64,000 nucleotides of DNA from Adineta ricciae. Lineage: Eukaryota; Rotifera; Eurotatoria; Adinetida; Adinetidae. Location of the stretch: the NCBI GenBank assembly GCA_905250025.1, contig CAJNOJ010000411.1, forward strand, positions 1 to 64,000, read 5' to 3'. The notes beneath the pieces are model-generated. The model was not told the DNA's origin and ran no database searches. It saw only the letters and a list, made by a program, of their open reading frames with translations. Positions 3,001-64,000 of this stretch are shown in pieces. A program made the position numbers and the translations under genes. Positions within the stretch are counted from its first letter, which is position 1, and each line of letters opens with the position of its first letter.

Positions 3001-3789
3001 CTCTCGCACACATGTTGCCGACGACGCACAGCTACAATTATCATATACGCGCAAAGTCATGTACAAGTATCTAGAGCGAGTATCCAAGCGGAAGATATAC
3101 GCCATCGTTCCGGTTGAATACAAAGCATTGCCTTGTGTTGTTTCTCGAATCATAGATAAGGACGACCAGAAGCCACGAACGATTGACGAATGCAATCGAT
3201 TGATTAAATCTTGAATTTGTAATTCAAGCGCATTATATGGTATGACGGATGTACTAATAAATTGATTTAAATAAAATACATTTATATCCCCGATGATCGT
3301 TTCATCTAGCAGCTCACAGATACTTTTCAAAGCTTGAAATGCATATGTACCGATGCTTCGAAAATCGAAGTAGAAAAGACTCACAGAGCTATTTGTATTC
3401 TCAGTGTGGATGCTATTTATCCAGTTCTGAGTTATAAAAACACTCGAACAAACTTGATGTAGTGTGTAGTTCACACGAACTATGTTTTTGTAGTCAATCG
3501 AGATTTGGGTACATGGACATGTTAGTGTTTGAGAATACGTAGCATTCAATTGGACGTAGTCGGTGAACGATGGCGATTTGACAATAACTGTTTTACGAAT
3601 GGTTATGAGAGAGTTGTACAAGAGAAGAATGGAGAAGAAAGAACTGAAGAGAAAGATGAATAATCTTGTTGAAATGAATTGATTTCGAAGTTGATGCTGA
3701 TCGGTAGAAGGTGGAATCGACGGGAAAAGATTAAAATGTTGAATAACATATTTTAGCTTTCTCCACAGTTTAAGAATCTGTCTTAACAT
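1..3789 (-). CDS. Three-unit repeat membrane protein (TM-ectodomain-TM x3), 3' end off window
   Basis: Proposed exons 3789-2544, 2422-1169 and 1107-<1, with introns 2543-2423 (121 bp) and 1168-1108 (61 bp). Both introns are GT-AG and phase 1. Each exon encodes one unit of about 410 aa: a short cytosolic lead, a hydrophobic segment (LFIFLFSSFFSILLL type), a Cys-rich ectodomain with N-glycosylation sequons, and a second hydrophobic segment followed by a basic tail (RRKK). The similarity between units 2 and 3 starts exactly at the splice acceptors, and both joins give a matching linker (VLS-x-x-ER). This supports one gene with at least 1202 residues and six membrane spans here. I recognise the unit as a type common in bdelloids but know no function. 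The alternative is three separate genes with their own ATGs; RNA would decide. Confidence 0.72.
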
Positions 3790-11089: not shown

Positions 11090-11882
11090 ATAAAATACTA
11101 TAGGCATTCATGTATGTAATGATTTTTAGTTCTAACGAAATTGTTAATGATGCCAAAAAATATACTTTACAATCTCGAGATGGTCACAAAGTAGAAGTGT
11201 ACTTTCGCGAAATAAACTAACGACATATAACTCACGAAAGATATAATTTACACAGTTGTCTTCATTAATGACTATATCTGTAATAGTCCAACAAGTACAG
11301 GGAATGTCAGAATGAGTAACAAAGAGTTCGTAGCACTTCTACAGCATTAAGTCGGAATAATGCAATATTTAAATGCTAAAAGTACTCTCTCGTTGGCCGT
11401 TACCGATGTAGATGTATTCAATATCCACGTGTTTATTGCATGTGTAGAAATGTGTATCATTGAAATTGTTAGCGGAGTATAATCTACGTAAACTGTTCTA
11501 TTTCAAAATATTATTACATACTACAACTCAGTACATTTTATAAATAAATGCGCTACATTACAGGATAAAGAGGTGAAAAAGAACATATTAACGTTACGGT
11601 AAGCAAGGTATGGTTTTTTGGCTTTGACTCATATCTTATGCGCTATTTCATTTCATACAAGAAGAATAGAGATATATTCATACGATTGACGTCAATTGAT
11701 CAAAATAGGTCACTAATTGCGATAAAACGTTTTATAAAGTATGACTTATTTCACCAAATCGTCATTTTTAAAGACGCATATATCGCCAAAGAGTAGTATA
11801 AATGGTGAGGCCTCAGAACCTTAAAAAGCCATAAGAAAAAAGCACTCGACTATATATTAAGCCCATTGTATTACTGTATCAA
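11090..11882. other. Intergenic
   Basis: An AATAAA overlaps the GPCR stop (about 11089). The remainder is AT-rich and holds no recognisable gene; it is probably the promoter of the hydrolase gene. Confidence 0.4.
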
Positions 11883-43321: not shown

Positions 43322-44376
43322 ATGTTGCAGATCAATATCGTATTGTTTACAATCACGATAGTGATATTCCACAGCAATTGTGTGAATAGTCTTGCTCATG
43401 ACACTGGTTTCGAAGCTAGTGCATCTGCAAATATTGGTGGGAATGGTGCACCAATATTTTCCATTCCATCACGCACTATAACCGGAACAACGTTTGGTAA
43501 TTCAATTATGAATATTGGCCCGAATCAACTCAGAGAAGATATGATTTTTGCTGAACTTCAAGCCGGAAATATTCCTGATTTCATGAGAACTCCGATTCCA
43601 ATTTCGGTTACAGCTGGTAATGATACACTTACATATTGGGTTCTTCCTGATGTTCTCTGCGTTGGTACAAATGCCGATTATTTACGAACACCACTAAATC
43701 CGTTAACAGCTCGGAGAGTTGCCGATATATACGGTGCTGTTCTGCCAACAAAGAAGATGGCGCATCAAATCTGGCAAGCAGCAACNTTACAGCTGGTAAT
43801 GATACACTTACATATTGGGTTCTTCCTGATGTTCTCTGCGTTGGTACAAATGCCGATTATTTACGAACACCACTAAATCCGTTAACAGCTCGGAGAGTTG
43901 CCGATATATACGGTGCTGTTCTGCCAACAAAGAAGATGGCACATCAAATCTGGCAAGCAGCAACAGTCAAGTTAACACCTAGTCCAAATGGTCCACCCTA
44001 CGATTCGACAATGATGTCAACAGAACGCATGGTATTTCATAATACGAAAATTCAAACTGCGCTCGGCAATAAAACCCCTGGTGAATTGATTAGCGGTCAT
44101 AAAAAAGATGTGGTAATCACTACAGGATTATTGACATATCCACAAAATGTCGCCATTGTCGGGTGGTGGTACCCATCAGGACAAATGATTCAACCACTGA
44201 ATTACAAATCACACGATCGATTTTATAAAGACTACAGTCATGGCATACGATTGGTTAATCGCATGGTAACAATCAATGGACAATGGTACGATATATATGA
44301 TGTGTTACGCAATGCAGCAGTAGCATCACTAATAAGTGATGAAGGTGCATTTGATGCTACACAAATGTACACTTGA
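43322..44376 (+). CDS. Secreted protein of bacterial-type family, unknown function (frame broken by assembly duplication)
   Basis: Residues 1-24 form a signal peptide (MLQINIVLFTITIVIFHSNC). The mature part contains YWVLPDVLCVGTNADYLRTP, ARRVADIYGAVLPTKKM, GHKKDVV, VAIVGWW, SGQMIQPL and YSHGIRLV. I recall this pattern from hypothetical secreted proteins of bacteria, but know no function. The frame as given is interrupted at the single N (43786), where 178 bp are repeated. Removing 179 bases leaves 876 nt, a multiple of three, and a 291-aa product, so the break is most likely an assembly artefact. It is intronless in an intron-rich region; transfer from bacteria is possible. Confidence 0.72.
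43608..43964. repeat. 178-bp direct duplication flanking a single N (assembly join)
   Basis: Bases 43608-43785 and 43787-43964 are the same except for one G/A difference (gcgcat versus gcacat). A lone N at 43786 separates them. This is the signature of two overlapping contigs or alleles that were abutted instead of merged. Confidence 0.9.
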
Positions 44377-46411: not shown

Positions 46412-47437
46412 TCATTGCAGTTGTCGGATCCATTTAGCTAATAGGTACATAGCCGAATTCCGATTGCAATAATTATTTGAATCAATTTTTCTCCATTCGA
46501 TATTTAATTTTGATAGGACTTCTGCATAAAGACAGACGTAACTAATCGGAAAGGTTTCTAAATCTTCAATAGTCATCTCTTCACCATCTTCATCAGTAAT
46601 TAAACTATCAGTAACGCCAGCCTCATTCACCAACGTTCGATAAGTTGGACAGGTTTTTTTCAATTCAATATCTCGATGAATATAATCATAAATAGGCATC
46701 GATGAATCAATCAAATTCACATAGATCCAACGATACATGACGCCAGGTGATAAATGTCCGAAATGATGTAATGGAGCATCACTAAATATCGATGGAATAC
46801 CATAACCATCAGGTTCAATTGATGGAATCAAAATCCATTCATAGTCATTTGTTTGCAATGATTGCAAATTCTTAATTGGAGAATCGTTTCCTTCGAGAAG
46901 ATTTGTAACATGAAGTTTGAATTGATTTAATAATTGGTCAAATGTTCCCTTTTTTGCTTGATAAACATAATAGGAAAATTGCAATCGTTCATTTCGGAAT
47001 TGTATTATATCGCCATGTTTTAATTGATTTAAAGCAGGAAAGATCTTCGTCGATTGATTTTTCAACTCTAAATTCCTTTGTTCACACGGTTGTTTATCCA
47101 ACTCCATTCTTATACATTCTAATTGACGACGGAAATCTTCTTCTTCCTCGTCTTCATGTGTTCCACTGTCTTCTACTAAATGACATTCATTCAATCGATA
47201 ATGCTCTTTAATCAATAAATCATAAAAACTTTCATTCAGTAAAACACAGCAAGCATCTGGACGAGCTAGACCAACTGATTCTGGAATACTTGATTGTTTC
47301 TTCTGCAGAATTTCTTCACAACCAGATAATGCTAACAATGAATGAGTTTTGATAACACTTTCTGCTGGCAACTCCCAATTCGGATACTGGTACAGTTTCG
47401 GTAATGTTGAAGTGTATTTTTTATCAGAAGAAGCCAT
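46412..47437 (-). CDS. Unknown intronless protein, 341 aa
   Basis: The frame runs from ATG 47437 to the stop at 46412. I do not recognise the family. It has no signal peptide or membrane segment. The middle (about 95-130) is acidic then Arg/Glu-rich (EDEEEEDFRRQ), likely a flexible or helical linker. Blocks that look structured are GDIIQFRNERLQFSYYVY at about residue 145, WILIPSIEPDGYGIPSIF at about 205 and SYVCLYAEVLSKLNIEW at about 305. Codon use and length suggest a genuine gene. A cytosolic location is the only safe inference. Confidence 0.65.
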   Translation of the reverse strand: MASSDKKYTSTLPKLYQYPNWELPAESVIKTHSLLALSGCEEILQKKQSSIPESVGLARPDACCVLLNESFYDLLIKEHYRLNECHLVEDSGTHEDEEEEDFRRQLECIRMELDKQPCEQRNLELKNQSTKIFPALNQLKHGDIIQFRNERLQFSYYVYQAKKGTFDQLLNQFKLHVTNLLEGNDSPIKNLQSLQTNDYEWILIPSIEPDGYGIPSIFSDAPLHHFGHLSPGVMYRWIYVNLIDSSMPIYDYIHRDIELKKTCPTYRTLVNEAGVTDSLITDEDGEEMTIEDLETFPISYVCLYAEVLSKLNIEWRKIDSNNYCNRNSAMYLLAKWIRQLQ

Positions 47438-47850
47438 TTTATACGGTATAGATGACGCCGGTATAAATTAAATTCTGCTAGTTTTTATAAGAATGTCATT
47501 TCACCATAGAGTAGAAATTACGTATTCTATCTATTTCAAGGCCAATTAAAAATACCTACTAATAGCGACATTTTTGACGATTTTCTACGATAATTATCGA
47601 TAAAAAATATGTTATGAATCAAATTTTTCTTTCTTTCTGTATGTATTATTTTGATTTTCTCTTATATTCAAAGGAGAGAGGAAGAAAAACAAAATACCAT
47701 GTGCCTTTGCGCTCGTCTTGTCGAGTTGTTATTCTCTTTCTATTCGTCCAGGCTTATCGTATACATATTGCCTTGCAAATATTTATTAAGTAAAACACAA
47801 AGCGCACTCCTCATTCTATTTATTTTGCGACCTTTCTAACGAACAGTAAT
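47438..47850. other. Divergent intergenic region
   Basis: It separates two divergently transcribed intronless genes; promoters are expected here. No motif is recognised. Confidence 0.4.
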
Positions 47851-48693
47851 ATGACATACAAAGAATTACTGCATATGCCATTGGATAATGGTGTTAATAT
47901 TGCTTACCGTCTTTCACATCCGATCGATAAATCGTTGGAAACCATTGTTATGCACCATGCTTTCTTAATGAATTCTCGATTTTACGATCAACAATTTAAG
48001 GATACTCGATATGCAAACTATAACCTGATATCAATCGATGCGCATGGCCATGGAGAAACAACAGGTCGTGGAGACAAATTCACGTTTTGGGATACTGCTT
48101 CGGATTCCTTACAACTTCTTACCAAGCTTGGCGTAGATCGGTTTTATGCAATGGGAACTACTCAAGGAGCTTCTATTGCTCTTCGAATGGCTCTACTCGA
48201 ACCTCAAAGGGTCAAAGGATTGATTCTGCTGGCAACTACAGTCTATGCTACGCCGGAACAAGCTAGAATCAATGCAGGCAAAGGTCGTGCCAAGTGGTGT
48301 GAAACAAAAATTCCATCCGATGAGGCAATAACAATGAGAGCAGGATCATTTGGAGGTCCTACACGCATTAACGAAAAGGTATTTGAAAAACTCAAAGAAA
48401 TGTGGATTCAACGACATGCTGGTGCTGAAGGTTATGATCCAGCATTGAATTGTCTTCTCGATCGTGATGCAATTGATGATCAACTGGACAAAATTACAAT
48501 GCCAACCATGGTTCTTCATGGATCCGAAGATCGAATTATCACAACAGACGAAGTCAATATGTGGGTACCGAAACTGCCTAATCTGTGGAAGTTTTTAGTT
48601 GTCGAGAGAGGTGTTCACCATCTTCCATTGACAGAACCGGGCAATGATGTCGCTGCCGACTTGATCACTCAATTTATCAAAGAAACATCATAA
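47851..48693 (+). CDS. Alpha/beta hydrolase with Thr at the nucleophile position
   Basis: The product is 280 aa and intronless. The fold is clear: HHAFLMNSRFY oxyanion region, ISIDAHGHGET strand, nucleophile elbow MGTTQGAS (residues 101-108), acid near GSEDRI and the catalytic His in GVHHLPLTEP (H256/H257). In family members the elbow is G-x-S-x-G; here position 104 is Thr (codon ACT), so the enzyme may be slow or inactive. The fungal-like phrase GTTQGASIALRMALLEPQR and the lack of introns hint at transfer from fungi, not proven. The substrate class cannot be told. An AATAAA lies about 70 bases downstream (near 48761). Confidence 0.85.
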   Translation: MTYKELLHMPLDNGVNIAYRLSHPIDKSLETIVMHHAFLMNSRFYDQQFKDTRYANYNLISIDAHGHGETTGRGDKFTFWDTASDSLQLLTKLGVDRFYAMGTTQGASIALRMALLEPQRVKGLILLATTVYATPEQARINAGKGRAKWCETKIPSDEAITMRAGSFGGPTRINEKVFEKLKEMWIQRHAGAEGYDPALNCLLDRDAIDDQLDKITMPTMVLHGSEDRIITTDEVNMWVPKLPNLWKFLVVERGVHHLPLTEPGNDVAADLITQFIKETS

Positions 48694-48810
48694 ACATAAT
48701 CTACTCTTTTCCTTCGAAACGATACTTTTTATTGATTAAATAGAATAACTGATTTTATTAAATAAAATTCGCTTGTTTAAAACGCAAGTATAAAATAGTT
48801 TTTAACCTTG

Positions 48811-49067
48811 CTACTGATATGGTACTTTGACAACAATATCATTTTGATCAGTAACGCAGGTGATACGTTTTGGATCAAGCATTTCATCTTCTATCCCGTT
48901 TCGTGCATTGTAAGGACGAAGGGCTATATAGCGTGAGATAAAAACAATGATTCGAATAAAGTATAAGCAAAGTTGCGAGTCTTACTGCTATCGGATGCAA
49001 GTATTGCTTGAGATGCTTCTTGAAACGATCGTCCAACTAATTCTGGCCACTCTCTACGTGTTGACAT
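48811..49067 (-). CDS. Potato inhibitor I family serine-protease inhibitor, 64 aa
   Basis: Exons 49067-48986 and 48923-48811 (62-bp phase-1 intron) give 64 aa. The protein begins MSTRREWPELVG and continues with FQEASQAIL, DPKRITC and IVVKVPYQ, matching the small inhibitors of the eglin/potato-I type: the WPELVG start, a helix, the binding loop between about residues 34 and 45, and the VxVP end. There is no signal peptide, so it is cytosolic as written. The gene is too short for usual ORF cut-offs and is split, which explains why it is easily missed. It is convergent with the hydrolase gene. Confidence 0.8.
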
Positions 49068-51940
49068 TGTGAATCGAATGAAAAATAAACATTGACGAAT
49101 CCTTTGAACCCTATCCCACAGAAAAATATCAGTCTATCCAAGCGAAACAATAGGAGATCTGTTATAATTGGCCAGACAAATTTTGAAAGAAATCTCGAGT
49201 AACTTTAACATCGACAAATATAATATGCTTTGCTTTTCTTTATTAATTCCCACGTGAGATGCTCATTTAAAGGCAACTACTGGACGATAGATGGCGCTTT
49301 TCTTTGTATGGATATTGTTGAAATATGAACGTAGAGTGTTAATGTTTTATTCTATATCTTAATGCTTCATATTTGCCAAAAAAGTATATCCAAAATATGG
49401 CAGATTTTCTGATACGTTAGCATGGAAATAATAAAATCTCATAGAAAAACGACCCGCATGACTTCGTGTATGGTTAGGTAGTGCTCCTGGAAAACTAATT
49501 TTGTGCAGTTATTGTCTTTTGTGCACGTACACACTGCTTCAGATTTAAAATAATTAACAATGAAATGTTATTGGGTAGGCACGCAAGTTCCGAGCGTTTT
49601 TTGCTCGTTGGATAAAAACTTTATTTTTCAAAACTGTTACGGCATGAACCCACGCACAGTCCACTCCCACTCTTCTTTTTCTCTTCCCTTCTCTCTCGCA
49701 GTCGTGTCCACTCACCTAGAGCGTATGAGATCATTTCATCCGTCTCTGTCGTCTACCTAAATAAATGAGCTAATGTTGCCGACAACAATAGAGAATACAT
49801 TGTTGGTTGATGTTTCGTATCTGTGTTTCAAAATAAAGCTGTTATTGAACGAGAATAAAACGCTCAGAGCTTATGTACCAACCAATATCAATTTATCGAA
49901 AAGTAAACATATTGAAACTGAATCGAAGGACTGAATTTAATGTTCAAACTATATGTTTTCTCTGTTCATATGAATAACATTGTTACTCAGATTAAACTCA
50001 ACCAGCATTCTAATATCTTTCAACATTTTATTAAAATAGAATATGAATTATATTCACATGTTCGTAGTTTATTTGCAATCTGAACATTAGCTCTTGGTGG
50101 ATTGAATGCATTTTTCTTTTAATATAAAATACGTATGAAATAAGTGAAATACAACTAGGAGTAATGATATTATTTTAGATATAAAATGATTAACCAGTTT
50201 ATTTCATGCTGTTAGTTCTGATACACCTAACATTATGCATAAATGTATTCAGAATCTGTCTATAGAGAATAAGGAACGGCTATATGTCAGAAGACGGAAA
50301 ACCATCATAAAGAAGGAAAGAAGTACATAATGTACCGGAGTGATATTGTACGGAGAAAAGGATTGAGCTTTGAGGGGAAAAGTAGTAGACGAAAGAGAAC
50401 AGAATGTCCTTGATATTATTCGTAGTAACGACGGATGCTTGAAAGGAATCAACAATACAAACAGACGGAAGTACTCAATATAGACAGATCGATGGTGTGT
50501 ATATAAGCTACGTTATCTGTATTAAGACATTCTCAATTGACGGCTACAACAAAACACAACAACAACACAATACTCGTCGGTGTATTCGCTATTTATTGGT
50601 CCTCTTCTTTTCTAAGTAAGCGAAGACAACACCAACATTGATTCAATTCTGTGTGATTCTGAACAATTTGAGAAAGCGACAACAATAGGTATTATCAAAG
50701 AATAGGAGACTTACTTCTATTCTATTCCTTTATTACAGATTGATTTCTATCGAATTTAATAGTCTCTTCTTTCCTTGGATATTCTTAATATTATTCTAAA
50801 CGATTGCTTTTGTTTTTGATTTTTTTTCATTTATAACAACATTAGACGCCTTATCACATGCCGTTGAGTTGTTCAATCTTTCGCTCTTTTCTATTTTATG
50901 AACAGAATATATATCGTCGTTTAGTATAAGAATTGTTTCTAATTTTGCGTGAATCGAACCGATTTACTTGCTCAATCGATTATTCGTTTTTTAGTCTATT
51001 GTTGTGGTCTATGCTTTTCCTTTTGACCACAAAATAAAAGGTTAATTGATATCTTGTTCAAGTTAGTGGGGCGATATTGCAACTAGACTAGGTACTAGAA
51101 AAGTAGAACAAATATCGTGAAAACACCATGAAACCGTCATATTGTACAGTCAGATCTACTCTTTTCTTTCTATGTAGTCGCAACTTTGTAGGTTCTACAA
51201 TGTAAACATCGACGTTTTGTGTTCTGTCTGCATTTCGTCTGCCGCTAAGATGTGTTGGGATTCTTCCAATATACGACGTATTGGGCTTTTGTTTTTCCAT
51301 CATGTGTAATCATACACATCCTATATATAGATGTATACGTCTTTACATATGTGGGTGTGTGATCCTCTTCTGTTGTCATAACAAACGCCTAGATGTTACA
51401 AAATATATTTTTATTTTCTTTTACTGCTATCAAAAAAATACAATTTTCCTTACACGTTACATCCACCATTGAGAGAACATTATTTCTCTATTTATTTACC
51501 ATCAAAAGTATTGTCTGCCTCTGTCTTTCATCATCAGACCGTGATATCATCGTCATTATTGTTCTCAGTATCGAAACAACAATATGACCTTCTTCGGCTT
51601 TTATACATCTCTATTAGAATATCCGTTTTTAGCTATAGTCTATTTCATATGCAAAACTTTTTGAAGGAAGTTAATTGAACTAACTTTCGAGTTTTCTATC
51701 ATGACGATCATCGAAAAGAAACTGAAAAGGAGAAAATTAGTTTTTCATCTGTTACATTTGAACCCGCACTTTTCTGACCGCATCTACCATGTTTAAATCC
51801 ACCTTGAAACATCCGAATTGTATAGGAATGCTTTGCATACTAATGTTCCATCATTAGATTTTCGTCTGTTCTAGATTGATACACGCCATCTGTTTCTTTG
51901 TCTCTTTGGCAGTCGATACGTAGGCGGAGGTACGGAAAAG
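49068..51940. other. Long gene-poor stretch
   Basis: About 2.9 kb of AT-rich DNA with only short frames lacking motifs (49560-49760, 51281-51678). A pyrimidine-rich acceptor (ttgtctctttggcag, ending 51912) lies just before the start of the SNTX fusion gene and may mark a 5'-UTR intron or trans-splice site. No RNA gene was recognised. Confidence 0.4.
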
Positions 51941-54900
51941 ATGAATGTTGACACGGTAACTACAAAGCAGGCTATTGGACGACATGGCATTATTGGGAGT
52001 CTGTATGATATTCGTAATGATCAATTTGAAGGCGGAAACTTATTCAATCAACAAATACCGTCATCGATCGTTTTAATAACGGACTGTGCCAGTTCTGATT
52101 ATCTTATGGACGACAATAAGTCACAAAGTGAAACCTTGAATAATCTGAATATTGAAGGATCAATGAAATTAAGTCTGCTGTCAGGTGTCCTTAAAGCCGA
52201 AGGTTCAGCTAAATATTTAAATCAAACAAAAACAGATAGTAGAACAGTTCGCGTTACATTCACGTATAAAGCAAAAACCAAATATGAACATTTACAAATC
52301 AGTATGACGGATTTACTTAAGTGTGTTTCATTCGATGCATTTCAGAATCCACATGCAACACATTGCGTTATTGGTATTACATATGGAGCATGTGTAGCAG
52401 CTACATTCGAGCAAACGGCGTCGAATTCTAAAGAAGCTGAAGAAGTTCAAGGAAACCTTGCAGCAGAATTCAAAAAAGGTTATATAGATGTCGAAGGTAG
52501 TGTAAAGATGAACAAGGAGGATAAAAAGGATTCAGTCGCAGATTCAATGAAAATTACTCTATCAGGTGATATTTTAATCGACAAGATTCCAATTACAATG
52601 AAAGACGTTTTTGACATCTTCGAAAAGGTGCCATTTATGCTGTCAAAACTAAATGATGGCAAGGGAAAACCAATAGAATTTGAGCTATATCCCTTACAAC
52701 GATTGGCCAAAGTTTTCAATTGCGAATTGAAAATTGAACGGTTAGTAGTATTTCTAAACTCCTGAAAATCTCATTTCAAAAATGTGATTCTGCAATGGTT
52801 TTGAATAATCACTAATAATATATCTTCTGATGTGTTATTCAAGCGAAACTATTCGAATCGGTTTTTTAGAATGATCAAAGAAGTGACGAGTGCCGTTGTT
52901 AGTCGTATTGAAAATATTTTCGAAGAAATAACTCATGCGAAAAGAATGTTCAATGACTTTGTTGCCAAAATTGACCCATGGCAAGAATGGCTTCCACCAG
53001 AATGGACAAGAATTGTTTATGAGAAAAAAACAGAGTTAGCCGGTCAACAAGTACACACACAACGTGAATTGGCTACTTTGATCCAACAGATTCGTCGTGG
53101 CGAAGCTGATGAAGCAAAAATGGTACACCTATTGGATAATTTTGATCGTGAAAATCCATGTTCGACGAGATCTATCAAGGAATTCTTGAGAGAAAATGAA
53201 AGAATTGATGCTAAAATTCGATCCTTGGGCGAATTCGATCAAAAAGCATCTACAGAGGAAGAAAGAAAACCGAATACAGCAGTTCTATTAAGAGAGTTCA
53301 CATCAATTCAAGACTTTGTATTGCGTTATAATGATACCGATGTTTTCCTTTTAAATATATCAAATAAATGGGAACAAGACAACAAAGAAAACTGGTACAA
53401 GCAACTTCGATATTTCTGTCATCTTATGCACGGAACAGAGAACGGTAAAATGCCAATTACTCGAGTTATCGATCACGATTTACACGTTAATCTGCATATG
53501 AAACCTGACGCTTGTGTCATTTTTTATGCGCACGACGGAGCCATAAAGTCTCGCGATTATTATTGCACTGCGTGGGGTAAGTCTATACACCTTTTTTCAT
53601 CATGAAGCAAACAGAATGTATGTGATCAAACTTTTTTTTTTCAGAAACGCTGGACCCGATGGTCATTAGAGAGATTAAGTTGAAACACAAATTCATGTTC
53701 TTGAATGACAAAGCTGTTCAACTTTGGCATAAAACATTCATCAAACGATCGTAAATAACGCGAACATTTGATTTCAATAATATTATTTACAGCTTTGCTT
53801 CTTTAGACCCAAAGGTCAACTAAATGAAGAAGATTTTATCAGTGCATACCAACAGTTATATACATCGTAAATTCTTTTTCAAATGTCCTATCTCGTCTAT
53901 GTATACATGTGCGTGTGCATTTTAGAGGAAGTGCAGGACCATACTGTAGGCATATATTTCATAAGATTGATGACGACAATAGTGGAACTATTAGCTTCGG
54001 AGAATTTATGTCAGCCATATCCTTGTCACTATTGGCTGATATAGAACAACAACTTAAATTTGTATGTACTTATTTGCAAACGATTGCTTTAAACCGAGCT
54101 TTTTATTCAAGGTTTTTAAACTTTGTACTCAGAAAGATTCTAAACATGCTCATAGCGACGAACTAATTAATTTTATAGAACTGATCACTGAATTAGAAGG
54201 CGGAGAAGATGCGGTTGATCCTGTCGCTGCAGAAATGATTGTTCATCAGATCATGGAATCGAACAAAAATACAACTACCGGAAGTGAATGTGCCAAAAAT
54301 GAAATTAATGAAGAAGAATTTGTTGACAAATGGTCTGTATACTTTTTAAAGCTTTTGATAAACAAAAAACCTCTTTTTATCTCAGTATGAAAAAATACGA
54401 TTTGATTCTCGCATTCTTACCGCTCTTCTGCAGTGAGTAGCTTATAGTCCAAACTATTTCTTATAATGTGACACACCTTATTTAGAAAAATCGCTCGTTG
54501 ATCATGCTGGCTTGATCAAAAAGCGACAGGTAGGTATCACACAAGATGAAATTCTCGAACAATATCGAAAGATATTGGAAGAACTGTAAATATCGTTTGA
54601 TCATGTCAACTTCGATTCATTCATTCATTTCTGTATTTATAGTCATAGAGGAATATTGACAAAATCGAGTTATACGAAAACGCTGAAGGACTATAATCCA
54701 GAGTATTGTTAAGTTTTTTGTATTATCAGACAAATAATCATAAAGAATCTTTTATTGATGTATTTAGAGGAAATTCCACGTCTTTCTGCAATTATATCTT
54801 CAAAGGAATTACTAAAGGTCGAAACAATATTATTAATTTCGATTGTTTTTTGGATGCACATCAATTGTTAGATCCGATAGATGTTGAACATGCTCTGACA

Positions 54901-56718
54901 GCGGTGAGTTCGACTTTAAGAGAAAAGATTTCCTAAATAATTTCAGTTTATACCATTATAGGCATTTAATCTCTGCGATATAGATCGTTGTGGAACAATT
55001 GGTTCAGCTCAAATAGAAACGTTTGTAAAGATCATAGCTGAACTAAATGAAAAACATACTTCAACAAGTTCATACAATGCTTCGACTTATGCTCTCAAGC
55101 ATCCAAAGTCGATAGCTAAAGCAATAATGGGACATAGTGACAACGAGAAGGATAATCAAATTAAAAGCAAGAACTTTGTTGATTGGTATAATTTTCAAAC
55201 GAATCTTATAATATTCTAGACAATCTATCAAATATCTTTATGTTTTACTTAGTTGCAAAAACGATTATTGGCTGTGTGCAGCAATTTTACCGCTTAACTC
55301 AGGTAATTTTTTCCTCCTTCATGTAATAAAAGACTATATTTGAACTAATTCACACAAATTCTATTTAGTGAATGTTCATCACGGAGTTTCTAGACGGAAT
55401 CACTCAAAGCCTCATATCAACATCGCCACGATCGGTCATAAGTCACATGGTAAGACAACTCTAACAGCTGCCATCTTCAAAGGTAGGAACGATGCAGATA
55501 GATTCATATTTTCGATATACAGTAGATTTGTACGAATAGTCCTGCATGAAAAAAGACAAAAAGAAAATAAGCCGGACGAGAAAGTCATCCCAGTGATCGA
55601 AGATAAATCCTACAAAAAATTAATCTCAGTGATTCAAAATGAAACACATTCATCACAGAAACAGAGTAAGTCTTTTAAACTTCCTGTCATGACATTTTCT
55701 ACTTCTCATTTGAACAGGTCATGTTATCGCAGTGGCATATGAAACGATTGCACGTCGTTATGTTCATTTTGATTGTGCCGGTCATCGAAAGTTTATCAAG
55801 AATATGATTTCGACTGCTGCGGTGCTTGATGGAGCAATCTTAGTTGTAGATGCTACCGAAGGTATTATGCCACAAACACGTGAACACTTGAGAATTGTCC
55901 GCAAATTTGGTGTAAAAAATATCGTCGTCTTTCTCAATAAGACAAAAGACGTCGACGAAAAGAAATTGAAACAGATAGAAATAGAATTGAAGGAATTACT
56001 GGTTCTTGATGCAAACAATGAAGATTTTATTCCTATAATACGTGCATGGGAACATTCTAGCAATAGAGAGAAGCCAACTGAGATAGATGCTGATGCAATA
56101 GACAAGTTGTTGCATGCAATCGACGTTTTTATTCCATCACCGTACAGACATGTTGACAAGAATTTTTTAATGACGATCAGCGATATTCACAATATTTCTG
56201 GCAAGGGAATTGTAGCCAAAGGCGTCGTGCAAAGAGGTACCGTTCATCAAGGAGATCAAGTCGAAATTGCCGGCTACGGAGCTATAATTAACGCGATAGC
56301 AACCAAAATACAAACGTTCAAACAACAAATAGATCGTGCTAAAAATGGTGACTATGTCGGCTTGCTTTTACGAGATTTAACGACGAAACAAATTCGACGT
56401 CGACAAGTTATTGCCATGCGCAAGACTGTAACACTTCATAAACACTTTACGGTGGACATTTATGTGCTGACAAAAGAAGAGGGTGGTCGGCATACACCTT
56501 TTTTTCAAACTTATCAACCACAAGTGTTTTCCAAAACTGGTGTCGCCACTGCTAAAATCACTTTCCTAGATGGTCAACGGAGAGCCATGCCAGGTGATAA
56601 TTTAAAACTGAAATTGGATTTGTTCAAAGGAATGGTTATTGAAGAAAAGGATCCCATATTGCTTTATGAAGGTGGGAAATTAGTTGCAACTGGCGGAGTT
56701 ATTCAAATACTTGATTAA
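51941..56718 (+). CDS. SNTX-like / tandem NCS-type EF-hand / EF-Tu-like fusion protein, 1295 aa
   Basis: Fifteen exons keep phase throughout: 51941-52740, 52870-53576, 53645-53750, 53807-53866, 53926-54061, 54112-54332, 54386-54432, 54486-54585, 54643-54702, 54768-54903, 54962-55185, 55253-55302, 55369-55482, 55540-55665, 55718-56718. Residues 1 to about 266 match the SNTX MACPF-like module; about 267-500 the helical and thioredoxin-like parts that usually follow it. Residues about 505-880 are two neuronal-calcium-sensor-like modules; loop 573-584 ([12 protein letters not shown]) is a canonical EF-hand, loop 797-808 is degenerate. Residues 897-1295 are EF-Tu-like: P-loop GHKSHGKTT (905-913), DCAGH (981-985), NKTK (1036-1039), then both beta-barrel domains. 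SNTX modules occur in many non-venom animal proteins, so toxicity is not implied. No signal peptide. Confidence 0.82.
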
Positions 56719-56800
56719 TCTAAAAAAAAACTGAAACTTACACATATTATCCTCTTTTTTAGTTGTAGTCTTTTGTAGCAAACCTCATTTTCGACTTTTT

Positions 56801-56811
56801 TGCTTTTCTAG
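56801..56811 (+). promoter_or_regulatory. Splice-acceptor-like site before the SecA-like gene
   Basis: A T-rich tract ends in tgcttttctag, 15 bases before the ATG at 56827 and within the 108-bp gap after the upstream stop. Bdelloids add spliced leaders in trans, so this could be a trans-splice acceptor of a two-gene operon. That is inference; a cis intron in the 5' UTR is equally possible. Confidence 0.4.
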
Positions 56812-56826
56812 ATAATAACTAAGACG

Positions 56827-59800
56827 ATGTCTTCGAAACACCAAACAAGTCAGACATGGATTTTAGCTGATGAACTCGAAAAACTTTTAACCAACAAGTC
56901 TGCTGAAAGAAAACTTCAAACTGTAATAAAGAACGCGGCATATATACATGATTTATTTGTTAAATTAGTCACCGTGATTGAACAGTATGATAAACAAGGA
57001 AAAAATATCGATCAACAAGCAGATTTTTCGGAACAATTATCAAGTTTCAAAGAGTTAATTGAGGAAAAGATTGAAAACTCAAGTGAAAATGTTGGTATAA
57101 TTTCATCATTGGAAAATTGTTTAGCAGCTATAATAGAGCATTATCGACTGATTCGCAATAATGTTCAAACTTTGGAAGATATTAACCAAAAGATCAAGGA
57201 AAAAGTTCAAGGAAAAAGGAATAAAAATGATATTGGTCGATTAATTATTCGAGCTATTGATGAGAAAATACCAGATTTGATTTCTTTTGATCCTCGTGGT
57301 CTGAAATCTGAAAGGGAAAAATCAGATATTCTAAAACAATATTATGATCATTTTCTCAATTATACACCATTGATTCGAGAATTGTCAGAAAATATCTTCG
57401 ACAATGACGCAGAATATATTTTCAAATTGGAAAATTTACAAGCGAAACTATTGAGCAAAAACTCGGTTAATATTAAAGATTATTTTTTAAAATTAAAAGA
57501 CAAAATTCTCGATGAGAACCGAAGTTATTCAACTGAAGTTTTATTACGAAGTTTCGTTCAAAATCCATTGGTACACATCAGTGTTTCTAATAGTTCGAAG
57601 TTTTATTCTTCACAATTGATTCAAATATTTGAAAAACTAATCACATCAGATTACCAAAGATGCATTGAACCGTTGACAACATTAATATATCACTTCGATC
57701 GAACCATTTTTAAACATTTCAATTTAACTATATTTGAAAAGAATGAAATTCTCGATTGTATTTTCAAAACTCTCTACGATAAAGGTATTGAATTATATTC
57801 GAATTCCAACGGGTCGATTTGCAGGAAAAACTTCGAAGGAAAATTCGCGGACTTCTTCGAGTTAATCTTATCGAAAAAACCGGAACTATTGCATCGATTA
57901 CGAGATTTGGTTATTGACGAAAACAACAGCAAAGGAACCTTTGATTTACTATCGAATATCTATGGTCAACATATTCAAAGTTTAAAATTCAATCTCTCAA
58001 ATGATATTACCATTGTTAAGCATTGTTTCAATTATCTTTATCTAAAATCATTACAATATGAAAAACTTGCTGATATACCCAAACCATCATTAGTTGCGCG
58101 GTTATTATTCTATATTCATACGCATGATAACCAAATGTGTTCACACGAGACTGAAAAGAAACATGAAGAAGATTTACTTGGTTTGAAAAATGTTTTCCTT
58201 CAAGTTTACAATGAAGAGAATTGCATTCATTTGAATTGTCTTATTGAAATTTTGAAAATGTTTATGAATATTCAAACGTATGACTTTCGTTTGAGAACTA
58301 TTAGTACAGCTATTTGCAAATTAAAAGATACGTGGAATCCGAATGAAAAATTCCATATAAAAATTCAAACGTTACGAGAGTTTTTCAATCACACGAATAA
58401 TGAAAAGGAGCTTTGTTTACGTTTAGTACGATCATTTAATATTCATTTATTGAACGATATTTTCGAAGATAAGAATGTCGTTTTAACAAAATTATCGGAA
58501 TACAATCCCAATTTCAAATTATTTCTTGAGATAAGTAATGAATATGAAAATATTTTTCATATTGATCGTAATTTAACTCCGGGATTTAATATTCCATATT
58601 ATTTATCTCTTCAATTAATTCACGATGAACGATACAATAGTACAGCAAAGAATCAACAAATTCTCATGGCGGTTTTATTCAAAGTATTGAATTCTTCATC
58701 GGAAAAAGATAAAGAAGAATTCTTGAGAAGTACAAATGAATTCAACAACGAATTTATGAAATTATTTCAATCAGTTAATCAATTAATCGAGTTTTATAAT
58801 CAAAGCGACTATAAAGATATTCGTCATGATCTACAACGAATGTCCATTGGATATATTTTAAATGGTTTTGGCAGAAAAAATGATGGAAATTTACATGAGA
58901 GAAATGAATATGTAAGAACAATTATTGAAAATATGATTAATTACAAATTTGAACATGTGACTAAAGTAATTGACTCTACGAAATCAAATACTGAAGTATT
59001 CAATATGTTTGATAGAATAATAAAAAGAAAAGATGATTATAATTTCTACGATTGGACAGCAAATACCAGTAAATTAGGTGACAAATTATATTTCTTATAT
59101 TGTTATCATCAATATTCAAAAGATCAGTTTGATACGTGGTTTAGAGAAATCAATCGAAATATAACCGATGAAAGTTATGTAAGAATTCAAGATCATAGAA
59201 AATCAGTCGAAAATGATTTTGAAGAGAATAGTGATGCATTGAAACATTTGAATATTAATTATTTACAACATAATCAAGTTGGTGCATTAGCGTTAATCTA
59301 TGATTATCTGGCGGAAGATTCATCGACAAGCAAAGCGAATCTCTTTATGAAAATCGGCACGGGTCAAGGAAAATCGTTAATAATTGCCGAAACAGTTCGA
59401 AAAATTGTTCAAATGAGTCGTAAATCTACTGGACCAAAGCAAAAGATATTTGTTATCACATGCTCAGATCGTCTAGCTAAAATGGACTTTGAAAATTTTC
59501 AAAGATATTACACATATCTTGATATTCAATCCATTTATTGTTCGAATGACAGTTCTATAAAAGATTTTTCTGATGCAGATGTTATCTATGCTGATTTAAA
59601 CACTTATTTCAATGTCTTAAGAAAATATGGATTTAATGCGTTGATAAAATCAGAGCCAATCAATTTGCCCGATCTTAATGATGCTATATTAATTATGGAT
59701 GAATTTGATAGTTTAGTTCTCGATTATGATCATATATTTCAAGTAGTATATCGTTTTAAATTAGAAAATTATAATGAAACAATGCGTCTTGATCATAAAG

Positions 59801-60870
59801 ATGATGTTCGAAAATTATTTCATGGAGTATTTTCAAAAGAAGTGGAACAGAAATTTGAAACTCTTATTGACCGTTGGTGCGAAAAACTCTTATGTGAAAA
59901 ACAGGAAGAAGATGCGAAAAATGACAGTAGAATGTTTCAAGATGCACTGGGGAACGAGCATACATTCAGTAGTTCGTTTTTGAAAGGATTGTTGCAAGGA
60001 TCCACAGCTAATTTTGTTCATTTTTATTTGCATCCTTTGGTGTTTTATTGCAAATTTAAACACATTATCGGATTCTCAGGAAGTATAACATTAAACGGAA
60101 TGGATCAATTAAAAACTTTATTTGATAATAAAAGTTGTCTTTATTATGAAATTCCACCATTTTTCGGCTTGTCAAACCTTCGAAATAATCGAACATTTGA
60201 AAACCAACCAGGTATTGTGGTGAAAGACACACATGACTATTTAAATGCAATTCAAGAAGAAATCAAACGTCGCCATTCGGAACAGCCAATTCTCATATTC
60301 GCCGATTCATTCAAGAAATCCTTTCAAGAAAAATCGGATTATCAATGCATCTATGAAAAACTAATCGAAGCGAAACAAACATACCTTACAAACTCAACGA
60401 TTATCAAAATCATGGAAGAAACGGATATTCATGAAAATATCCATAGAATTGGTAGACTCGGTTCAATCACGTTAGCAACTCGAATCATTGCTCGTGGTGC
60501 TGATATAAAAGTGCATAAAAATATCAAAAAGGGTTTACATTTACTACTAACATATTATCCTGAAAGAGAAAATGTTTACATACAAATGCTTGGTCGAACT
60601 GCAAGACAAGACGCAAAAGGTTCTTATTCCGAGATAACAAGGACGCCGAAAAATTTTGTTGATGTAGTTGAAGTCAAAGTTGATCCAAGAAAGAAAGTCT
60701 ATCATAATGTCAATGAATATTTTTACAAAAACATACCTTCAAATTTCAAAGATCAAAATTTGGCTATCAAATGGAATCTATTTTCGTGTTTAATGCAACA
60801 AATGTCCGACGCAGAATTGGATCAAAATGACCTAATTAAATTTATTAATAGCAATATTTTTAACTTGTAA
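56827..60870 (+). CDS. SecA-type DEAD-like helicase/translocase, eukaryotic, 1347 aa
   Basis: One uninterrupted exon. Residues 1 to about 810 are helical, Lys/Glu/Asn-rich and of no family I recognise. The motor is C-terminal: Walker A MKIGTGQGKS (about 841-850), VITCSDRLA (motif Ia region), Walker B LIMDEFD (about 953-959), the GFSGSITL motif III equivalent, ARGAD, and motif VI QMLGRTARQDAKG (about 1254-1266). GTGQGKS, DEFD and the RGAD...GRTARQ pair match SecA rather than ordinary DEAD-box helicases. The SecA preprotein cross-linking and C-terminal zinc parts were not seen, so protein export is unlikely. It starts 108 bp after the SNTX fusion gene on the same strand. Confidence 0.85.
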   Translation: MSSKHQTSQTWILADELEKLLTNKSAERKLQTVIKNAAYIHDLFVKLVTVIEQYDKQGKNIDQQADFSEQLSSFKELIEEKIENSSENVGIISSLENCLAAIIEHYRLIRNNVQTLEDINQKIKEKVQGKRNKNDIGRLIIRAIDEKIPDLISFDPRGLKSEREKSDILKQYYDHFLNYTPLIRELSENIFDNDAEYIFKLENLQAKLLSKNSVNIKDYFLKLKDKILDENRSYSTEVLLRSFVQNPLVHISVSNSSKFYSSQLIQIFEKLITSDYQRCIEPLTTLIYHFDRTIFKHFNLTIFEKNEILDCIFKTLYDKGIELYSNSNGSICRKNFEGKFADFFELILSKKPELLHRLRDLVIDENNSKGTFDLLSNIYGQHIQSLKFNLSNDITIVKHCFNYLYLKSLQYEKLADIPKPSLVARLLFYIHTHDNQMCSHETEKKHEEDLLGLKNVFLQVYNEENCIHLNCLIEILKMFMNIQTYDFRLRTISTAICKLKDTWNPNEKFHIKIQTLREFFNHTNNEKELCLRLVRSFNIHLLNDIFEDKNVVLTKLSEYNPNFKLFLEISNEYENIFHIDRNLTPGFNIPYYLSLQLIHDERYNSTAKNQQILMAVLFKVLNSSSEKDKEEFLRSTNEFNNEFMKLFQSVNQLIEFYNQSDYKDIRHDLQRMSIGYILNGFGRKNDGNLHERNEYVRTIIENMINYKFEHVTKVIDSTKSNTEVFNMFDRIIKRKDDYNFYDWTANTSKLGDKLYFLYCYHQYSKDQFDTWFREINRNITDESYVRIQDHRKSVENDFEENSDALKHLNINYLQHNQVGALALIYDYLAEDSSTSKANLFMKIGTGQGKSLIIAETVRKIVQMSRKSTGPKQKIFVITCSDRLAKMDFENFQRYYTYLDIQSIYCSNDSSIKDFSDADVIYADLNTYFNVLRKYGFNALIKSEPINLPDLNDAILIMDEFDSLVLDYDHIFQVVYRFKLENYNETMRLDHKDDVRKLFHGVFSKEVEQKFETLIDRWCEKLLCEKQEEDAKNDSRMFQDALGNEHTFSSSFLKGLLQGSTANFVHFYLHPLVFYCKFKHIIGFSGSITLNGMDQLKTLFDNKSCLYYEIPPFFGLSNLRNNRTFENQPGIVVKDTHDYLNAIQEEIKRRHSEQPILIFADSFKKSFQEKSDYQCIYEKLIEAKQTYLTNSTIIKIMEETDIHENIHRIGRLGSITLATRIIARGADIKVHKNIKKGLHLLLTYYPERENVYIQMLGRTARQDAKGSYSEITRTPKNFVDVVEVKVDPRKKVYHNVNEYFYKNIPSNFKDQNLAIKWNLFSCLMQQMSDAELDQNDLIKFINSNIFNL

Positions 60871-61371
60871 CTTTTGGTTTTTAGAAGAGTAGAACGAAAA
60901 TGTCTGCTTAGAAATAGCAGTCATTACACAAGAATCACTCCCAATGTCGTAGAAAGCCATGTTATTGAATTTATTGTAGATGTGAATTAGAACTTTAGCT
61001 TTGAGGGTGGGTGTGGGTGACTGAGTAATGTAGTTCAGGTCTATTAAAAGTTAATTGTGGTGATATTTTGAAACATCTCCTATTTTATTTATGAGAGAAA
61101 AAAGTGAGAATAATTCGTGTTACTATATGCCAAAAAGTATTGAAAAAATGACACTTTTTTGTGAGGTGAGAATATTTTAATAGATGATTATAAAACATGC
61201 AAACTATGTGTAGAAAATAAGGATATAGGGGAAAGTCAGATGTACTTAAAATACTGAAGATTTTGTAAGCAATAGTTCGATATTGTAGATAAACAAGCGG
61301 TTAATTTCGTTTATTGTGTCGCGATCAACAAACAAACAAAAAACTACAGGTTAATTATTAGAAGTAGTTTA
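60871..61371. other. Convergent intergenic region
   Basis: AT-rich with a G-rich patch near 61010-61025 (gggtgggtgtggg). No gene. Confidence 0.4.
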
Positions 61372-62175
61372 TTAAATCAAATAAAGAAAGAAAACAAGAA
61401 GAAAATAATATTTTGGTATGAAAGAGTTCACACCGGAATTTACGTCGATGAATTCCCATGGATAATAATTATTTGCTATTTGAATCATCTGTTTGATTTT
61501 TTCTTGCGTATTACATAAATTTCCCTTATTGCAAGTGTAACCAAGATGATTCCAGTCCAAGGGAAGTTCCGAACTGCCTTGTACAAGTGTTATATCATAA
61601 TATAGATATTGAAATATAGTCTGCGAGCTTGTATTTCTACATTCACCTTTAAAATCAGGTCTCCTATTCTCGATAATTTCATATCCATGGCATCCGTAAG
61701 CATTGATACACGACTTCGGTTGATTATGATTATCTGCACATTGTTGAACGTTGGTGCCGGTCGGGTCATACAATTCATTCTGTAATTCGGTTAAAACCGA
61801 TTGTTTGCTAATCAACGTTGATATTGTTGTTCGATAAAACACCTTCGCACAATCATTTGCGTCTTTACATTTGTAGGTTACATTCGAAAATAACATTTTC
61901 GGTTGAGCGAATTTGTTTTTAACTAAAAGATTAATTTCAAATGTTCTATTCAGAGCATCGCCATTTGCTAAATCCAACCGGATTTCCTTCGCTAGATAAT
62001 CTATATGAAAAACTGCTTGACAGGCAACACTTTCCACTATTTGTCCTTCGCATTTCGATGGGAAATCCGTTGCACGATCGAATGATAGAACAGTATTATC
62101 GCACTTGGTACACTGAAGACAGTTCGCAGAAGCGAAATAGAAAAATAGAAGCGCTATTTGAATCCAGGACAGCAT
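61372..62175 (-). CDS. Secreted, Cys-rich, probably GPI-anchored Ly6-like protein
   Basis: The product is 267 aa if translation starts at the ATG at 62175, which places a signal peptide (MLSWIQIALLFFYFASANC) at the N-terminus; an upstream in-frame ATG at 62223 is less likely. The mature part opens CTKCDN and has about a dozen Cys, ending in a CNKGNLCN motif typical of Ly6/uPAR three-finger domains. Several N-x-S/T sequons are present. The last 15 residues are hydrophobic (YYFLLVFFLYLI), consistent with a GPI signal. Surface location is likely; the partner is unknown. It is convergent with the SecA-like gene. Confidence 0.72.
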   Translation of the reverse strand: MLSWIQIALLFFYFASANCLQCTKCDNTVLSFDRATDFPSKCEGQIVESVACQAVFHIDYLAKEIRLDLANGDALNRTFEINLLVKNKFAQPKMLFSNVTYKCKDANDCAKVFYRTTISTLISKQSVLTELQNELYDPTGTNVQQCADNHNQPKSCINAYGCHGYEIIENRRPDFKGECRNTSSQTIFQYLYYDITLVQGSSELPLDWNHLGYTCNKGNLCNTQEKIKQMIQIANNYYPWEFIDVNSGVNSFIPKYYFLLVFFLYLI

Positions 62176-62350
62176 TGTTAGTGAAGTCTTGAGAGTAAAA
62201 AACTGAATGAATGTGCATGACATGCTTAGATAACGAAACTCCTATGTTATCGCACTCATGATGACTTAGATTTCTTTTGTCACAATGAAAAAAAAAGGTT
62301 TTATTAGTAAAACTTTCATTTTCGATATATTGTGAATACAAGAGATGTAA

Positions 62351-64000
62351 TTAGATTTGCATGGGTTGTATTTCGTGTTGTTTCATAAGAATTTCTTGAC
62401 TTTTTCCAATTGCATTCAGTTGTTCATTCATCATCGGCAGCTCTCGCATGCTCTCGATCCATTGATAAATCACATTTAGATTTCCGTGTTCATCTTTGGA
62501 GATAATATTGCTTGTTCGTTCTTCGTAACGTTGTTTCCATTGAACTAGTTCTTTGACTAATTGAACATTGAGATAGTTTGTTTCGGATCGACGACAGATG
62601 TATGTTTCCTGTTCGATCATGCGGATCAATTGAACTAGGAGTTCGTTTTGTTTTGTGCAACATGCAACATGTCGAAGAAAGTAAGCGAATTCGATACACG
62701 CATCACGGAGAATCGCCAGTTGATCTTTCAATTCACTAATTTGTTTTGTCGACGGGCGATTTAGCAGTTTATAATCGAGCAGGTAATCAATTGGAATGTG
62801 TTTGTTTGGTGAACATTGACAACTAGTGCAACATGCTCGTCGAATATCGTGTGGAACGTCAGCAATGATTCCGAAATTTCCTACTTTGATTATCTTTGGA
62901 GGACATGAAAGACAGAGATAGATCGGCCGATGAATCACAATCGGACGTAATTCGATCGATTGATTCGGAGATTCGATATTCCACAGAGTTATATTTCGAA
63001 GCGTGTTCCTCACTGTTTCAACAAGCGGACGGATGAGATGATTGATTTGAAACTGAGCATGTTTGATTGATTTCCAGCCAGTTGTCAAAGAATACGGAGT
63101 CAGTTTTGTACGAATGTAATTAACCAATCGATGAGATTCGTTCAGGGATGTTGACCAACTGAGTTCATAGTTGGATTTTTCTTTGGGATGAAACGATAAA
63201 CCTTGATTGCGTGCAACTAAATAACGAAATGCTTCGCTATCGAAACAGAATGTATTTTCGCTGCTGAATGGAATGTTTTCGAATGGCAGAGAATCGAACA
63301 ATGAATTCAATAACGGAGCAGTGTTACCAGGTGTGAAGAAGGTTGAACGAGTGTTGGTAAAGCAAAAGGTTAAACACCGAGAAATATTTGCGCCGAGATA
63401 ATCGAATAGTTGAGTCAAACATGAACGGACGAACGGATTCAATTGGGAGAGGTTTGGTTTAAGGAGAAAACAAATAGCATTGATGTGCGTATAGTGTTGA
63501 ATGTATTGAAAAATTTCTTCTAAATTATGATTGTCTTGATTGATCGCTGGAGTGTCGATCAGACACAATTTGCTTCCGTCGTCCAAATGAAACACATAAG
63601 TTTTACAATGTTGTGTAACCGACTGATCGCGTTGACGAAAATTTTCATTATCTGAATCACCGAATTCGATTGTTTTTTCCTCAGCATTTTCACCAACAGT
63701 CATTTGAAACGAAACGGGAATGAGTACAGCAGTTTTATCCGATTCAGCTTGATCGAATCGATCATAGGTTAGATAATTCATAAACGCATTGACAAATAGA
63801 GATTTTCCAACTCCAGTTTCACCTAAAAGCAAAACATTGTAAACTTCATTTGACCTGGGTACGACTGGTTTCTGTGGTATTGGATTTGTTTCGCTCGACA
63901 ATGATGATGATGAACTTGAGATTTCCACAGCTGAATCTGTTGTAACTAAATTATTCGACATTTCACTCAACGAATCTGTTTCGGTGATCGTTTCATGATC
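62351..64000 (-). CDS. P-loop GTPase (AIG1/septin-like), 5' end probably beyond window
   Basis: The frame is open from the window edge to the stop at 62351; the first ATG is at 63961 (536 aa), but in-frame codons continue to 64000. The GTPase part (numbered from that ATG) has YNVLLLGETGVGKS (P-loop 47-54), a threonine-containing switch region, LIDTPAI (DxxG replaced by DTPA) and a CFTNTRS block in the NKxD position. A Cys-rich segment (about 345-380, CLSC, CCTSC) and a helical C-terminal region follow. I know this GTPase type from animal proteins that also carry SNTX modules, often N-terminal to it, so an SNTX part beyond 64000 would not be surprising. Confidence 0.78.
   Translation of the reverse strand, partial: DHETITETDSLSEMSNNLVTTDSAVEISSSSSSLSSETNPIPQKPVVPRSNEVYNVLLLGETGVGKSLFVNAFMNYLTYDRFDQAESDKTAVLIPVSFQMTVGENAEEKTIEFGDSDNENFRQRDQSVTQHCKTYVFHLDDGSKLCLIDTPAINQDNHNLEEIFQYIQHYTHINAICFLLKPNLSQLNPFVRSCLTQLFDYLGANISRCLTFCFTNTRSTFFTPGNTAPLLNSLFDSLPFENIPFSSENTFCFDSEAFRYLVARNQGLSFHPKEKSNYELSWSTSLNESHRLVNYIRTKLTPYSLTTGWKSIKHAQFQINHLIRPLVETVRNTLRNITLWNIESPNQSIELRPIVIHRPIYLCLSCPPKIIKVGNFGIIADVPHDIRRACCTSCQCSPNKHIPIDYLLDYKLLNRPSTKQISELKDQLAILRDACIEFAYFLRHVACCTKQNELLVQLIRMIEQETYICRRSETNYLNVQLVKELVQWKQRYEERTSNIISKDEHGNLNVIYQWIESMRELPMMNEQLNAIGKSQEILMKQHEIQPMQI

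Follow-up and report, generated by a model that had tools for sequence, protein, structure and literature searches.

How does a domain of a pore-forming family come to be followed by two calcium-sensor modules and a translation factor, and what could such a protein do? The question is raised by a locus of the bdelloid rotifer Adineta ricciae (assembly GCA_905250025.1) located in positions 1 to 64,000 of contig CAJNOJ010000411.1, a stretch of 64,000 nucleotides that we call the window. The locus (Table 1) appears to be a single gene that encodes a stonustoxin-type (SNTX) core, two modules of the neuronal calcium sensor (NCS) type and a degenerate elongation factor Tu (EF-Tu) of mitochondrial type. 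The gene structure, the domains, the duplicated NCS block, the introns that sister genes share while differing in their tails, and the loss of guanine-nucleotide motifs can be read from the sequence itself. We tentatively propose, with a confidence that falls somewhat short of even, that the product is a calcium-responsive protein acting on membranes, whose EF-Tu part would serve as a binding head and not as a GTP switch.

The preliminary description of this locus had read it as one frame of 15 exons, with 14 introns and a sum of 3888 nt. This reading holds: in the DNA of the window all the exons are joined in phase through 14 GT..AG introns, the same 14 introns were recovered by a spliced-alignment script that compared protein P0001 with the DNA, and the product is 100% identical to P0001, a deposited A. 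ricciae protein of 1,295 amino acids labelled 'Elongation factor Tu, mitochondrial' (P00xx stands for database proteins, and L0xx for loci of the A. ricciae genome searched, 130.46 Mb in 1,033 contigs). The order of the parts, SNTX/MACPF-like, two NCS-type modules and EF-Tu, was likewise confirmed by a profile (Pfam) search of each part. Intron 13 (55483-55539) has 57 nt, a multiple of three, and is open in frame; splicing it out joins TAAIFK to VLHEK, which restores an EF-Tu-like stretch and equals the deposited protein. According to PMC7943196, the gene predictions for A. ricciae were obtained with BRAKER fed with aligned published RNA-seq; P0001 presumably stems from that gene set, which does not imply read coverage of each intron. 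The size tabulated there for A. ricciae is 135.6 Mb.

Could the locus consist of separate genes, two or three in number, or give a main transcript ending before the EF-Tu part, mis-joined by the gene callers and by the preliminary description? AATAAA occurs at 53363 (exon 2) and at 55325 (intron 12), stops are met when introns 2, 7 and 12 are read through, and there is a Met near the start of module 1. However, these three introns, which separate the modules, have 68, 53 and 66 nt, which offers scant space for a terminator and a promoter. The first Met of module 2 is at its own residue 155 at least, and that of the EF-Tu part at residue 110 at least; since there is no earlier Met, neither could start at one with its core intact. 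In addition, SNTX and NCS parts occur in a single gene, with the same introns, in six paralogs, and the deposited protein P0001 is identical to the joined product. We consider separate genes very improbable. Nevertheless, two features of intron 12 weigh against a product that is always complete, namely its AATAAA and the stop that read-through meets after 13 codons; therefore a truncated product that lacks the EF-Tu part could also be made.

Table 1. Features of the window gene and its surroundings (positions in the window), and tails of the sister genes.
Feature	Position	Strand	Remarks
Gene, predicted product of 1,295 codons plus stop	51941-56718	+	15 exons, 3,888 nt
Exons 1-5	51941-52740, 52870-53576, 53645-53750, 53807-53866, 53926-54061	+	
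Exons 6-10	54112-54332, 54386-54432, 54486-54585, 54643-54702, 54768-54903	+	
Exons 11-15	54962-55185, 55253-55302, 55369-55482, 55540-55665, 55718-56718	+	
Exon 1: start codon, MACPF/CDC-like SNTX domain, residues 1-266	51941-52740	+	PF24674
Exon 2: putative FAT-like helical domain and DUF7656, residues 267-502	52870-53576	+	
Module 1, NCS-type EF-hand, exons 3-7	53645-54432	+	NCS-1, E 8.6e-19
Module 2, degenerate NCS-type, exons 8-12	54486-55302	+	KChIP4, E 1.1e-10
Degenerate mitochondrial-type EF-Tu, three domains, exons 13-15	55369-56718	+	profile scores, tree
Stop codon	56716-56718	+	ends exon 15
Block of about 11.9 kb, window gene and SecA-like gene	49272-61204	.	absent from second flank copy, same contig
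SecA/DEAD-like neighbour, single frame of 1,346 codons	56830-60870	+	weak, in same block
Tail, window gene			EF-Tu
Tail, L036			PBZ fingers, 36.7 bits (cut-off 22.7)
Tail, L039			TLDc, 81.6 bits (cut-off 24.5)
Tail, L040			TLDc, tblastn
Tail, L037 and L038			helical
Tail, L041			F-box-associated-like domain, 25.2 bits, under cut-off 32.4

The first 502 residues appear to follow the plan of stonustoxin. The MACPF_SNTX profile (PF24674) scores 59.8 bits (cut-off 27) over residues 9-260, and DUF7656, with 31.1 bits (cut-off 27), occupies the thioredoxin position of stonustoxin. Stonustoxin_helical, with 24.8 bits, remains below its cut-off of 27; nevertheless, the stonustoxin alignment passes through this region, and it is matched by the model of P0004, a relative that was folded with 8 alignment rows in place of the whole protein. 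In that model the MACPF part is mostly below pLDDT 50, therefore we make no structural claim for the MACPF part; NCS folds dominate the structure matches. The beta chain of stonustoxin matches residues 9-393 with an E of 1e-31, and the order MACPF, putative FAT-like helices and thioredoxin-position domain is shared with stonustoxin and the fish cytolysins (PDB 4wvm). Gly209 of the beta chain, named for pre-pore formation in PMC8704401, aligns with Gly209 of the window protein. On the other hand, the charged zipper residues of stonustoxin (beta 55 and 206) are not conserved, and the NCS modules and a variable tail are found where PRYSPRY would sit. No PRY/SPRY match was detected with E up to 0.05 (parts) or 0.01 (P0001), and the predicted protein is accordingly classed as a variant of the SNTX kind, short of full membership. 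The similarity to the beta chain might evoke a secreted, venom-like pore-former; however, the N-terminus does not resemble a signal peptide when judged by eye, PRYSPRY went unmatched in the Pfam search, and NCS and EF-Tu proteins are otherwise known as intracellular, which leaves this possibility with very little credence.

The core is followed by two modules that belong, as the preliminary description had proposed, to the NCS type; module 1 resembles NCS-1 and module 2 KChIP4 (Table 1). In module 1, EF-hand_6 (26.5 bits) and EF-hand_1 (26.0 bits) are both over their cut-offs, at one place, and no EF-hand over the Pfam cut-off was found in module 2. The exon lengths are 106, 60, 136, 221 and 47 nt in module 1 versus 100, 60, 136, 224 and 50 nt in module 2, the phases are equal, and both modules are flanked by phase-1 introns. 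The two align with a score of 113, whereas 200 shuffles averaged 12.0 (s.d. 5.6) and reached 38 at most. Because of these matching lengths and phases, the phase-1 bounds and a score far above that of the shuffles, module 2 is read as a tandem duplicate of the symmetrical five-exon block formed by exons 3-7. The modules share their sequence with the NCS family (NCS-1/frequenin, KChIP), and the NCS fold is present in the model of P0004. Unlike members of that family, they form a tandem pair inside a larger protein and, compared by eye with the EF-hand consensus, show a single canonical-looking loop, which belongs to module 1; the N-terminal myristoylation site is also missing from the window protein, since its NCS modules are internal. 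The proposal that the protein is calcium-gated is weakened: gating is possible through the one canonical-looking loop, and module 2 has no EF-hand over the Pfam cut-off.

SNTX matches were found at 15 places of the A. ricciae genome. Seven of these, the window gene included, encode SNTX, the helices, DUF7656 and a single NCS module, which is doubled in the window gene; six introns, with phases 2, 1, 2, 2, 0 and 2, lie at the same places in all seven genes. Their tails are diverse (Table 1). The spliced-alignment script placed one additional intron within the DUF7656 part of L037 and L038, and found the tail junction of L039 and L040 ambiguous. None of the seven cores contains a stop, with a script that penalises stops. 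For two recent pairs dN was 0.026 versus a dS of 0.113, and 0.018 versus 0.110; between the window gene and the six others the core shows a dN of 0.42-0.47 and a dS of 1.35-1.56 in three comparisons, saturated in the other three. The same pattern extends to other bdelloids: P0002-P0007 (P0008 has no NCS module) are 45-53% identical to the window protein over the aligned part and have the same domain order, but the second NCS module is absent from the alignment and the tails of P0002-P0008 are PBZ, TLDc, helical or NHL. Among them, Rotaria proteins have PBZ, TLDc and helical tails, and in one an NHL propeller replaces the NCS module. Since the sister genes keep the core and the first sensor but differ in their tails, the swappable tail probably decides what each protein binds.

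The architecture had been described as one never met before, with the suggestion to look for it in other bdelloids. Relatives of the core and NCS part do exist there; nevertheless, no SNTX-NCS-EF-Tu fusion other than P0001 was found among 11 matches from 7,993 scored candidates, in which the EF-Tu tail occurs in one of eight bdelloid-named proteins, nor, going by the Pfam column, among the best 120 of 194 matches from 7,998 scored candidates. Scoring in these two database searches was limited to the top candidates, and other species may hold the fusion. The claim of novelty is thus kept for the combination, found in one protein among the matches listed, and not for the parts, which are known families. 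A literature search for bdelloids with stonustoxin, MACPF or EF-Tu found neither the combination nor the swappable-tail family, and for a mitochondrial EF-Tu/EF-hand fusion the matches listed were unrelated by title.

A Pfam scan of the eight remaining SNTX matches covered L034 and L042-L046, with L023 and L035 left out. L034 and L045 have AIG1-type GTPase domains over cut-off, beside or with the SNTX frames; L043 and L044 have Thioredoxin_11 and fn3, and in L042 and L046 the SNTX domain alone was found. Two other frames can be mentioned here. One of 917 codons (L047:4135-6888, minus strand), about 11 kb downstream of the window gene, shows an AIG1 match of 25.6 bits (cut-off 27) and an N-terminus that is SNTX-like by eye. 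The other, of 875 codons (window 21704-24331, minus strand), has PBZ-like zinc fingers (21.1 bits, cut-off 22.7) of the same finger type as the tail of L036.

The tail of the window gene retains the three EF-Tu domains (PF00009, PF03144 and PF03143; 128, 33.3 and 65.3 bits, all over cut-off) and 93 of the 139 columns that are invariant in seven canonical EF-Tu rows. The whole protein nonetheless reaches 349.4 bits with the EF-Tu equivalog TIGR00485, below the cut-off of 522.4. Four database proteins, P0012-P0015, are 61-72% identical to the EF-Tu part and end at the same residue (120 of 7,997 matches were listed in this search). In all five, window gene and P0012-P0015, the Asp of NKxD is lost (K, K, K, Q and K, respectively) and the Pro of DCPGH is replaced by A. 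In the window gene the switch I motif RGITI is absent, its stretch being replaced, and the Asp of the P-loop is Ser, a site that P0012-P0015 do not span. The P-loop GKT, and DxxG with its His, are retained. A working GTP switch, in which the EF-Tu part would bind and hydrolyse GTP and gate the core, could draw on these retained motifs and on the SNTX frames with or beside AIG1-type GTPases at L045 and L034, which indicate that SNTX-GTPase partnerships recur. Because NKxD has lost its Asp in all five and RGITI is absent, to which the P-loop change and the low equivalog score can be added, such a switch is decidedly unlikely, and the 'nucleotide-controlled' effector of the preliminary description is weakened. 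With mitochondrial EF-Tu (TUFM) the tail shares three domains end to end, the tree grouping described below and one intron site; unlike TUFM, it has lost the Asp of NKxD, the Pro of DCPGH and RGITI, scores below the equivalog cut-off and is attached as a tail to a large protein. Canonical mitochondrial EF-Tu genes are present separately in A. ricciae (L027 and L028). The database label of P0001 is misleading, as our proposal, if right, suggests that the protein is not a mitochondrial EF-Tu.

Regarding the origin of this part, the window module and P0012-P0015 form one clade (100/100) in a tree of 36 rows, and this clade groups with animal and fungal mitochondrial EF-Tu with a support of 92/98 (not starred). 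In the same tree a grouping limited to the two animal mitochondrial rows has 68/7, and one limited to the two fungal rows has a p of 0.318; the branch of the module is long (2.13). Intron 13 shares its codon and phase with one of the introns that interrupt the rotifer's own mitochondrial EF-Tu gene. Nine of the ten introns of that gene were compared, the last one, past the stop, being left out; one of the module's two introns shares a site with these nine, and the probability of at least one shared site under uniform chance is 0.015. The tree and the shared intron favour a mitochondrial descent, which we regard as likely. The module could also have been transferred horizontally from a bacterium and gained its introns later. 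Bdelloids are known for their foreign genes, many of the best matches among those listed are bacterial, with about 40-44% identity, and the domain-3 loop GRHTPFF...YQPQ is like that of bacteria and fungi and unlike that of the rotifer's own mitochondrial EF-Tu, which counts against mitochondrial descent. However, the 92/98 branch and the common intron point the other way, and transfer, although it keeps some weight, seems unlikely to us. As a separate observation, two EF-Tu-like places (L025 and L026, C220) are 32-42% identical to the module, one of them with stops in the matching frame, and perhaps represent a further degenerate EF-Tu copy.

By our reading of the alignments, P0012, P0014 and P0015 appear to continue in frame across an intron, at the intron 14 site, into the shared exon, and P0013 begins within that exon. 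Together with the common end and the loss of the NKxD Asp, this apparent read-through in three of the four suggests that the EF-Tu module is likely older than the window locus and eukaryotic; bdelloid sources for P0012-P0015 are also likely.

These relatives bear on whether the fusion is a chance product on its way to decay, with EF-Tu exons that are transcribed along and have no function. Among the matches listed the full fusion occurs in one species, and the assembly has no close second copy of the EF-Tu module (the next match by E-value is 34% identical over about 260 residues). Furthermore, the flanks of the locus (47181-49271 and 61205-64000) have a second copy at L047 (907-2958 and 2994-5784) with 87-96% identity and about 35 bases apart, and the whole block that carries the window gene is missing from this second copy. 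Against decay, P0012-P0015 keep the module and share its NKxD loss, the apparent read-through of three of them at the intron 14 site suggests that the module predates the locus, and the 413 codons of exons 13-15 are free of stops and frameshifts. We find decay quite unlikely.

The block itself represents either an insertion in one flank copy or a loss from the other, and the second copy may be either a tandem duplicate or an allele in the wrong place; a search for terminal repeats at the block ends gave only short chance matches. The flanks hold an alpha/beta-hydrolase and neighbouring genes, present twice on the contig, one copy being without the block. The other gene of the block reaches 23.3 bits with P-loop_SecA and 22.1 bits with SecA_DEAD, both under cut-off. 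No close second copy was found in the assembly (the next by E-value is 28% identical); none of its 15 other genome matches exceeds 35% identity, and six of these matches lie in frames of more than 3,000 codons. Its protein gave no tblastn match against phages, and none against solved structures with E up to 0.01.

Elsewhere in the window, a frame at 11835-13787 (plus strand) combines five stretches of BTRD1 repeats with a beta-lactamase-family domain, a make-up known from microbial proteins. At 43608-43964 a direct repeat of 178 bases with 99.4% identity flanks one undetermined residue in an open frame, and is perhaps an assembly join. Four pairs of direct repeats (247-361 bases, 97-99.7% identity) lie in 1-3737 as neighbouring related stretches, as after duplication or gene conversion.

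Returning to the calcium-responsive protein with an EF-Tu binding head, a working scheme can be outlined. The core would oligomerise on membranes in the manner of stonustoxin, and the first NCS module, on binding calcium, would either uncover or mask the core or the head. According to PMC8704401, stonustoxin makes first contact with the target cell through its C-terminal domain; the tail, at the place of PRYSPRY, may similarly pick the target. Given that the guanine motifs are lost and domains 2 and 3 kept, the EF-Tu tail is better seen as a putative binding surface than as a switch, and the head might bind the partners of EF-Tu, or be bound by an attacker of EF-Tu, without GTP turnover. The gene probably originated when a duplicate of the mitochondrial EF-Tu gene was fused, through phase-1 introns, to the end of an SNTX-NCS gene. 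A bolder extension, which we think unlikely but worth stating, is that bdelloids have a family of intracellular, perforin-like surveillance proteins with a constant, calcium-armed SNTX core and exchangeable heads for recognition (PBZ, TLDc, FBA-like, NHL and EF-Tu). The EF-Tu head would then be a decoy built into the protein, which would detect agents that attack translation of the mitochondrial or bacterial type and thereupon arm the core on membranes.

Within the literature searched, what is new is the combination of known families and the family with swappable tails. If the proposal is correct, an animal lineage would have remodelled a family of pore-formers as an intracellular platform, linked to calcium, in which the recognition end is swapped by exon joining, and one such end would have been recruited by copying a core factor of mitochondrial translation. 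This would offer a concrete case for how MACPF proteins are aimed and controlled within cells.

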